Shown in pieces: positions 20,989 through 22,376 of a stretch of 35,899 nucleotides of DNA (its first letter is position 1; the number at the start of each line of letters is the position of its first letter). A program made the position numbers and the translations under genes. The notes below the pieces were generated by a model. That model was not told the DNA's origin and ran no database searches. It was given only the letters and a program-made list of their open reading frames with translations. This DNA comes from a virus. The DNA lies in IMG/VR virus record IMGVR_UViG_3300025887_000069, positions 1 to 35,899 of that record; one strand, written 5' to 3'.

Positions 20989-21018
20989 TTGACATTATCT
21001 AATAAATATGTATATAAT
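20989..21018 (+). promoter_or_regulatory. Consensus promoter of the noncoding RNA region
   Basis: TTGACA (20989-20994), 18-base spacer, TATAAT (21013-21018), starting three bases after the stop codon of the preceding gene. The expected start is about 21025, just before the first helix at 21029. No open reading frame with a ribosome site follows for about 1.3 kb. This promoter probably serves a stable RNA. Confidence 0.8.
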
Positions 21019-21028
21019 AGAGTATAGA

Positions 21029-21153
21029 GACAGGATTAATTATCTAAGTGGCATATTAAGTATTTATAATTAGTGTAAATAAATCTTGATATCTAAGTGT
21101 AAATACCTTATACTACAGGTAAGAGGTAAGTAAAAGAATTAATATTCCCTGTC
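21029..21153 (+). other. Closing stem at the 5' end of the noncoding transcript
   Basis: GACAGGATTAAT (21029-21040) pairs with ATTAAT (21138-21143) and CCTGTC (21148-21153), leaving a 4-base bulge. It begins about four bases after the expected start site and encloses ~97 bases. Its 3' strand overlaps the acceptor strand of the first tRNA-like element (ATTCCCT, 21144-21150), so the two folds exclude each other. That could make a folding switch or mark a processing choice. Confidence 0.4.
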
Positions 21154-21228
21154 CCCACACCAGTCTTCTAAACTGGCGACATTAAATAGTGGGATGGAAG
21201 TCAAGGAGTTCAATACTCTCAGGGAATG
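21144..21228 (+). tRNA. tRNA-like element, Arg(TCT) anticodon arm, no D arm
   Basis: Acceptor ATTCCCT (21144-21150) pairs perfectly with AGGGAAT (21221-21227). A perfect 5-bp anticodon stem (21160-21164/21172-21176) holds the 7-base loop CTTCTAA, anticodon TCT at 21167-21169. The T loop TTCAATA (21209-21215) has a weak stem. Only nine bases (21151-21159) lie where a D arm should be, and 27 bases separate the anticodon and T arms. CCCAC (21154-21158) can pair with GTGGG (21189-21193). It may be a degenerate or atypical tRNA, or a tRNA mimic inside a larger RNA. Confidence 0.35.
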
Positions 21229-21235
21229 CCGTATT

Positions 21236-21313
21236 AATATTGTAGTTTAAGTGGATAAAACATCTACTCCTTCTGGGGTAGGAGATATGAGGTTCAAGTC
21301 CTCGTCAATATTA
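21236..21313 (+). tRNA. tRNA-like element with abnormal anticodon loop
   Basis: Acceptor AATATTG (21236-21242) pairs with CAATATT (21306-21312). T8 and A9 are present, followed by a normal D arm (GTTT/AAAC, loop with GTGG). The T arm has TTCAAGT (21293-21299) with a 5-bp stem. The anticodon arm is odd: 21264-21268 pairs with 21277-21281 leaving an 8-base loop CCTTCTGG. With T21268 bulged it becomes a 7-base loop with TCT. One extra base (21305) sits between T stem and acceptor. CCA is not encoded. Functional status is unsure. Confidence 0.45.
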
Positions 21314-21648
21314 TCTAAATACTCCTTGATGGAGAGTATAGTGCAAATGACCTAGAGTCACTTACATCAAAACGTAATCCTGATGCCACTATAGAGCATC
21401 CCCAGAGGCTAGTAACTGGGCAACCCTGCACCACTTATGAAGTACGGGACTATACAGTAGTAATCCGATGGAGTAAGTATATTAAGAGTGTACCTAGACG
21501 TTTGGTAACTGGGACTAATAAAACATACACGCCTATCATAGAAGCGCAACCTTGTATGTTATTATACGCTATCATTACCTGTCGGTGATAGAAGAGATAA
21601 TAAACTCTCCCGTAGAGGGTAAGGGGATATATGGCAGGGTATTTAGAT

Positions 21649-21765
21649 TGGGAAGTGGCGAAATGGTAAACGCAACAGGTAGCTGTGGATGAGTGTGGGT
21701 AGCAACCACTTAAAGGTATCACGTGGTATCATCATCAATTATAGGTTCGAGTCCTATCTTCCCAA
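21649..21765 (+). tRNA. Leu-like tRNA element with expanded anticodon/variable region
   Basis: Acceptor TGGGAAG (21649-21655) pairs perfectly with CTTCCCA (21758-21764). The D arm GGCGAAATGGTAAACGC is typical of tRNA-Leu. The T arm ATAGG-TTCGAGT-CCTAT is perfect, and A21765 is the discriminator. Between D and T arms lie about 66 bases instead of ~30, and no standard 5-bp/7-base anticodon arm is found. Small hairpins are 21675-21678/21683-21686, and 21695-21698/21706-21709 with loop GTAGCAA. GGTATCA is repeated (21715, 21725). It is too short for a group I intron. Possibly a tRNA-derived structural element. Confidence 0.45.
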
Positions 21766-21772
21766 CCTAAGT

Positions 21773-21903
21773 ATTATTTAAAAAGAACATTAGTAAGCGG
21801 TGGACGTAACCCACAAATACATATAATGGATAGTTCCTCTAGGCTACGTGAGCCAAAAGGTAAGTTATATCACTTTTTGGTACTAATGTTCTTTTTAAAT
21901 AAT
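21773..21903 (+). repeat. 23-bp perfect stem enclosing an 85-base structured loop
   Basis: Arms 21773-21795 and 21881-21903 are perfect reverse complements. The enclosed part holds hairpins GTGG-ACGTAAC-CCAC (21800-21814) and GGCT-ACGTG-AGCC (21842-21854). An alternative CCAAAA/TTTTGG stem is possible (21853-21858/21875-21880). Both hairpin loops carry the self-complementary ACGT, allowing a loop-loop contact. The 3' arm contains TTCTTTTT, so it could also stop transcription. Such a long perfect stem would be a good RNase III substrate. Confidence 0.6.
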
Positions 21904-22184
21904 TAATGTATTGTATATAACTCATTAATATACTTAATGATTACTATATGATAAAATTAGCGGTTTTACAATGCAGTAAGTCTACCGCTATATAAACAAG
22001 ACTAGACCAACTCAGTAATGAGTCTAAACTAGAACACAAAGTAAATCCATGCACTGTCCACCCCTGACAACATGGTGAGAGGAGCTACATCAGGTATGGT
22101 GTAGACCTATACGATACTACTAAGGGATTGTTAAGATAAGAGTAATACTTATAAGTTTATTATAGATTATTTATAGTAAACAAC

Positions 22185-22213
22185 TTGACAATCATGCCAA
22201 TCCTTAGTATTAT
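22185..22213 (+). promoter_or_regulatory. Strong sigma70-type promoter before the small-gene cluster
   Basis: TTGACA (22185-22190), 17-base spacer, TATTAT (22208-22213). The -10 box lies inside one arm (22209-22219) of an 11-bp perfect inverted repeat whose other arm is 22257-22267. An inner 8-bp hairpin (22231-22238/22245-22252) would be at the start of the transcript. Confidence 0.75.
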
Positions 22214-22238
22214 ACTTACTAGATTACTGAGACATATA

Positions 22239-22267
22239 TTGGTTTATATGTCTTATGTAAGTATAAT
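22239..22267 (+). promoter_or_regulatory. Possible second tandem promoter
   Basis: TTGGTT (22239-22244), 17-base spacer, TATAAT (22262-22267). The -10 box lies in the second arm of the inverted repeat that also contains the upstream promoter's -10 box. The -35 is weak, the -10 perfect. One regulator binding both arms could control both starts. Confidence 0.4.
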
Positions 22268-22376
22268 CAATCTATTATAGAGAGCCTGATAAGTGCATCA
22301 GTAGTGTGTGATTAGTTATTATGACTATGACCATACTCCTCTCTATAATGGGGTAATTGTATCTGGAGAATATAGA

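Follow-up and report, generated by a model that had tools for sequence, protein, structure and literature searches.

A predicted pseudoknotted tRNA, apparently of a widespread undescribed class, in a promoter-led phage tRNA gene cluster

The window analysed here, a virus record of 35.9 kb (35,899 nucleotides), carries genes of a contractile-tailed phage, including those for the terminase, portal, capsid, sheath, tape-measure protein and ribonucleotide reductase. Within it, a consensus promoter leads into about 1.1 kb of DNA (20989-22140) with no credible ORF on the plus strand from the promoter to about position 22300. What does this stretch encode? The original prediction was a single giant structured noncoding RNA, either of the GOLLD or ROOL kind or of a new class. 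Our results indicated that these 1.1 kb hold a small cluster of phage tRNA genes headed by a promoter, not one giant RNA, and that one of its units is apparently a tRNA with a pseudoknotted core (pk-tRNA). The units of the cluster are listed below; L009 is a sister contig of the window.

20989-21018, plus strand: sigma-70 promoter, TTGACA-18-TATAAT, 12/12 match, heading the tRNA cluster and kept in L009
21144-21231, plus strand: predicted pseudoknotted tRNA-Arg(UCU), 88 nt including the discriminator and CCG (from alignments and the search model R1, 100.4 bits, a training row)
21236-21313, plus strand: second tRNA-like element, Rfam tRNA at 37.9 bits, ARAGORN-negative
21320-21435, plus strand: element E, four-hairpin and cloverleaf-like by folding, with the first GTAACTGGG; kept in L009 after the HNH gene
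21649-21765, plus strand: third tRNA-like element, Rfam tRNA at 42.7 bits; its acceptor, D and T arms are normal and its middle is expanded
21773-21903, plus strand: hairpin with a perfect 23-bp outer stem (21773-21795/21881-21903), z -5.98
21956-22035, plus strand: small element, conserved in part in L009

Several parts of the original prediction stood up. The consensus promoter and the absence of a credible gene were both confirmed, GTAACTGGG occurs at 21412 and again at 21505 (0.13 copies are expected in the whole window), and the 23-bp stem is a perfect inverted repeat (z -6). Three tRNA-like elements had also been proposed; ARAGORN called no tRNA in the window, Rfam matched two in the region, at 21236-21313 and 21649-21765, and the third is the pk-tRNA. 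In the fold of 21236-21313, the anticodon stem is apparently 7-8 bp long with a 4-nt loop, UUCU. In 21649-21765, about 62 nt lie between the D and T arms, with no clear anticodon arm. The structured segment 21320-21520, of no known family, holds two GTAACTGGG hairpins and is well conserved at 5125-5370 of L009, starting shortly after the HNH gene there. Farther downstream, a second promoter-like site (11/12) in 22185-22275 overlaps a 5' hairpin that folds strongly and precedes the next gene (hairpin z -4.2; window scan z -5.5).

The unit at 21144-21231 belongs to a group of elements that possess an anticodon arm of 5 bp with a 7-nt loop, U33, A37, a TTCRA T-loop and a CCA end (CCG in the window copy, CCA in the sister copy), as canonical tRNAs do, but lack the D-hairpin between the acceptor and anticodon stems. 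Because just 8 nt separate the 8-bp acceptor strand from the anticodon stem, a D-hairpin is impossible there. A C-rich strand pairs across the anticodon arm with a GTGGG strand to form a helix, D', and two short strands (GAC/GTC in the window copy) pair across D' to form a pseudoknot helix, which is 3-5 bp long in the class. Along the gene, the order is acceptor strand, 2 nt, C-rich strand, anticodon arm, short strand, GTGGG-like strand, NN-GG-NN, short strand, T-arm, acceptor strand and N-CCA, a plan that is constant across the relatives' loci. Pair 8-77 (GC/CG) extends the acceptor stem to 8 bp and leaves a 4-bp T-stem, giving an 8/4 domain. A few members (L005, L048) have a degenerate T-loop. 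The parts of the window copy are as follows.

21144-21151, plus strand: 5' strand of the acceptor stem, 8 bp with 21220-21227; compensatory changes in 7-8 of 8 pairs
21154-21158, plus strand: 5' strand of D', CCCAC, partner GTGGG at 21189-21193; 4/5 pairs compensatory, top mutual information
21160-21176, plus strand: anticodon arm, 5 bp, loop CTTCTAA, anticodon UCU at 21167-21169; from alignments and covariation
21178-21180, plus strand: pseudoknot strand GAC, partner GTC at 21200-21202; middle pair AU/UA/GC, 100% paired
21189-21193, plus strand: 3' strand of D', GTGGG; from covariation and mutual information
21194, plus strand: A, proposed tertiary Watson-Crick partner of T-loop U 21214; Watson-Crick in 35/37, 4 pair types
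21196-21197, plus strand: conserved GG, proposed counterpart of G18G19; 36/37 and 37/37
21205-21219, plus strand: T-arm, 4-bp stem, loop TTCAATA; from alignment and covariation

The pattern scans behind the first alignment fixed part of D' and of the pseudoknot, and we therefore performed a scan that fixed the anticodon loop, T-loop and CCA spacing only. This second scan yielded two clean groups, one of elements with intact D', pseudoknot and acceptor helices and the other of ordinary tRNAs with CTTCTAA in the D-loop. In the initial alignment, 99.2% of the pair cells were standard and 18 pairs were changed on both sides. In 18 sequences of the first group, 98.7% of the pair cells were standard, compensatory changes were present in 21 of the 25 pairs, and the covariation score was 0.83 vs. 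0.24 for shuffled and at most 0.16 for slid controls; CG, UA, AU and GC pairs were all seen in D'. For D' and the pseudoknot alone, 99.3% of cells were paired across 37 sequences. When mutual information was calculated for the 37 sequences with no structure supplied, the top 15 column pairs all fell on the proposed helices. The next pair joined column 51, the residue after D', to column 71, T-loop position 59 (Watson-Crick in 35/37, four types), which suggests that D' may dock on the T-loop as a D-loop would. Read by eye, D' appears as CTGAC/GTTAG in a distant form from a Nitrincola phage, and the pseudoknot as CCCT/AGGG, CCGT/ACGG and GCCCG/CGGGC in distant chromosomal and Bacteroidota forms.

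To what extent is this element distributed? When the region was compared with named phages by BLAST, the 21144-21231 piece alone had significant matches, in phages of Acinetobacter, Vibrio and Escherichia (Av-05) and in Zobellviridae; a search of this element against plasmids found nothing, and BLAST of two other pk-tRNA members matched no named phage. With the search model R1, training rows scored 75-106 bits, members outside the training about 32-96 bits and canonical tRNAs about 28 bits at most, and most members exceeded 70 bits. In all, the relatives amount to more than 60 distinct members, carried by phages of Acinetobacter, Escherichia, Vibrio and Nitrincola, by jumbo phages, by a small number of chromosomes and in metagenomes. 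The Acinetobacter carriers include YMC13/03/R2096, Bestia, AM24, P577, KissB, phiAB441, ME3 and the T4-like Lazarusvirus group; other named carriers are Escherichia phage Av-05, Vibrio phage 1.084.O and Nitrincola phage 1M3-16, and those in IMG/VR reach 342 kb. The carriers are independent phage lineages. HNH or Seg-like homing endonuclease genes adjoin the pk-tRNA in L005, L006, L009, L052 and L208.

The pk-tRNAs are missed by ARAGORN, tRNAscan-SE and Rfam, and in records annotated with tRNAscan-SE or ARAGORN, their place is blank or called a hypothetical protein. At >29 bits, RF00005 recovered neither the window pk-tRNA nor those of L005-L008. The tRNA-Sec model RF01852 gave 22-30 bits against a gathering threshold of 47, and the anticodon is UCU, not UCA.

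Chromosomal copies were rare. Among sampled cellular genomes of four phyla, a pk-tRNA was present in 1/195, 1/398, 0/398 and 1/395, and chromosomal pk-tRNAs, for Tyr (GUA) and Cys (GCA), occurred in 8 of the 249 genomes from one Pseudomonadota order. The chromosomal loci include L213 (G533:C1:1787500-1807400), L257, L259 and L262. In four of the five readable flanks (G533, G1442, G1615 and G1566), pk-tRNA-Tyr was directly followed by a gene of one 125-aa protein family, which had no match in Pfam, NCBIfam or PADLOC, and this pair lay directly downstream of argG in two cases. One such genome has a full canonical tRNA set, and the pk-tRNA there is thus an addition, not a replacement.

To our knowledge, the topology of the pk-tRNA is unlike that of any known tRNA. 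In plant RNA viruses, tRNA-like structures use a pseudoknot to build the acceptor arm at the 3' end of the viral RNA; they share with the pk-tRNA the use of a pseudoknot in tRNA mimicry, whereas the acceptor of the pk-tRNA is ordinary and its pseudoknot forms the core of a tRNA with a free-standing gene. The canonical bacterial or phage tRNA-Arg(UCU) is similar in its CTTCTAA loop, U33, TTCRANN T-loop, CCA end, location in tRNA clusters and match to phage AGA usage, but the pk-tRNA has no D-hairpin, places its D-stem across the anticodon arm, adds a crossing pseudoknot and is 8/4 instead of 7/5. A longer acceptor, a shorter T-stem and a 12-bp acceptor domain are also found in tRNA-Sec, selC*-tRNA and allo-tRNA (8/4 or 9/3; PMC7609411), which differ in that their D-hairpin is genuine and their cloverleaf nested. 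The D-hairpin is likewise missing from the laboratory mini-HisT (PMC11551756) and from D-armless mitochondrial tRNAs; however, these do without the arm, whereas the pk-tRNA rebuilds it from other sequence and appears still to contact the T-loop. The text of a review of tRNA diversity includes no pseudoknotted form (PMC7609411), and according to a 2024 statement, every known bacterial tRNA is a canonical cloverleaf (PMC11551756); on this basis, we argue that the pk-tRNA is new. In the open-access literature, we found no description of a tRNA with a pseudoknotted core, and an earlier description elsewhere is possible. The pk-tRNAs thus apparently constitute a widespread undescribed tRNA class.

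Most of the pk-tRNAs carry the anticodon UCU; CCU (L075) and ACG (L014), also for Arg, were found as well, together with GUA for Tyr (L020, L064, L086, L144, L147, L212 and L048; loop CTGTAAA), GCA for Cys (L210) and UAU for Ile (L021). The discriminator base of the Arg forms is mixed and often U, and the Tyr forms mostly retain G1-C72 and A73. A canonical tRNA-Arg(UCU) was present at none of the 32 loci that hold a pk-Arg(UCU) form plus at least one canonical tRNA, vs. 24 of 62 loci without the pk form (Fisher 8.8e-6, an optimistic value because the loci are not phylogenetically independent). Moreover, in phage records that have 13-28 canonical tRNAs, the missing types are exactly those present as pk-tRNAs. 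For example, R2096 has 17 canonical tRNAs with no Arg among them, and G200 has 28, from which Tyr and Arg(UCU) are missing, both being present as pk-tRNAs; G202 is similar. One of the 28 canonical tRNAs of G200 (L197-L199) has a CTA (amber) anticodon. AGA accounts for 20-42% of Arg codons in carrier records and for 39% in the window. One contig holds both pk-Tyr and canonical Tyr, and this, together with the chromosomal copies beside a full canonical set, indicates that replacement is not universal.

The gaps in the canonical sets, the exclusion of tRNA-Arg(UCU) and the AGA usage led us to read the element as a working tRNA, with charging and use being inferred. Judged from these sequence comparisons, 21144-21231 very probably encodes a functional phage tRNA-Arg(UCU) of new architecture. 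It would be transcribed from the promoter at 20989 together with the other tRNA units, and host enzymes would trim it and finish the CCA. The conserved GG after D' may act as G18G19, so that the molecule would dock on the T-loop and adopt an L-like shape; charged with arginine, it would read AGA codons and stand in for the canonical tRNA-Arg(UCU) that the phage lacks. An artificial D-armless tRNA is usable by E. coli without changes to the translation machinery (PMC11551756), which makes the use of so odd a core plausible.

A different function would be that of a decoy or sponge, a tRNA mimic that does not translate and instead occupies or inhibits a synthetase, a modification enzyme or an anticodon nuclease of the host. 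Phage tRNAs directed against tRNA-targeting defences are known (PMC10264068, PMC11555353, PMC13096335), and the CTTCTAA anticodon loop is nearly invariant among the members found, partly by selection, both of which would suit such a role. However, a decoy need not exclude the canonical tRNA-Arg(UCU), yet the pk and canonical forms exclude each other, and translation better accounts for the encoded CCA and for the occurrence of several anticodons (Arg, Tyr, Cys, Ile) among sets of tRNA genes. We therefore consider a decoy unlikely, and a translating tRNA remains the preferred reading.

For the whole of 20989-22140 to be one giant structured RNA, GOLLD/ROOL-like or new, appears very improbable. 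The strong promoter, the long stretch free of ORFs, the presence of several hairpins and the recurrence of GTAACTGGG speak for it, and the region resembles GOLLD and ROOL (PMC12286853) as phage-associated structured RNA near tRNAs; it differs from them in having no model match and, apparently, no giant transcript unit. First, Rfam was searched at gathering and permissive thresholds with the window, its relatives and the sister contig. In the window, no GOLLD or ROOL match appeared even at E<=10, and tRNA was the sole family above threshold. Weak abiF, miRNA and plastid matches fell below threshold and were rejected, and no group I intron was reported in the window. Second, the dense series of helices in the original prediction did not exceed chance outside the 23-bp stem: the MFE z of the whole region was -3.2 because of that stem, 21024-21770 alone gave z -0.66, and most 160-nt windows in 21024-21770 fell inside the coding-control range of folding energy.

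Third, the units are rearranged in the sister contig. A search by two flanking proteins gave L009 as the only useful result (L010 reached just 30%). In L009, the upstream 100-aa gene is 96% identical, the promoter is shared and the leader is similar; after the leader come an added tRNA-Met-like element, a near-unchanged counterpart of 21144-21231 and an inserted HNH endonuclease gene, which replaces the second tRNA, and the middle of the region is retained in parts only. The added element (L009 4460-4536) resembles a gene for tRNA-Met(CAU), with a 5' acceptor strand that does not complement the 3' strand. This shuffling of units between the window and L009 indicates a tRNA-region mosaic, not one large RNA, and the 88-nt unit stands alone in many phages. 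What survives of the proposed tRNA-like parts and new class is thus one 88-nt covarying pseudoknotted tRNA element, and the claim is not supported for the region as a whole.

That the elements are decaying tRNA pseudogenes that have lost the D-arm can be dismissed almost entirely, even though the other tRNA units of the window look odd, because all five helices are upheld by compensatory changes across unrelated phages and the gain of a covarying pseudoknot is not expected during decay.

Returning to the translating tRNA, we lean towards the broader view that the pseudoknotted-core tRNAs for Arg, Tyr, Cys and Ile across diverse phages and some chromosomes form a set that is able to serve in translation and is overlooked by current tRNA finders, the selective force probably being resistance to tRNA-targeting immunity or some special translation. 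More tentatively, the rerouted core might let a phage tRNA escape host tRNA-targeting nucleases or tRNA surveillance, a possibility favoured because a role of phage tRNAs against such defences is known (PMC10264068, PMC11555353, PMC13096335). If true, a natural and recurrent tRNA with its D-stem rerouted into a pseudoknot would be an exception to the cloverleaf rule, would account for unexplained holes in phage tRNA sets and require new gene-finding models, and would make it possible to test why phages carry tRNAs and to what extent an altered tRNA core is tolerated by ribosomes, synthetases and nucleases.
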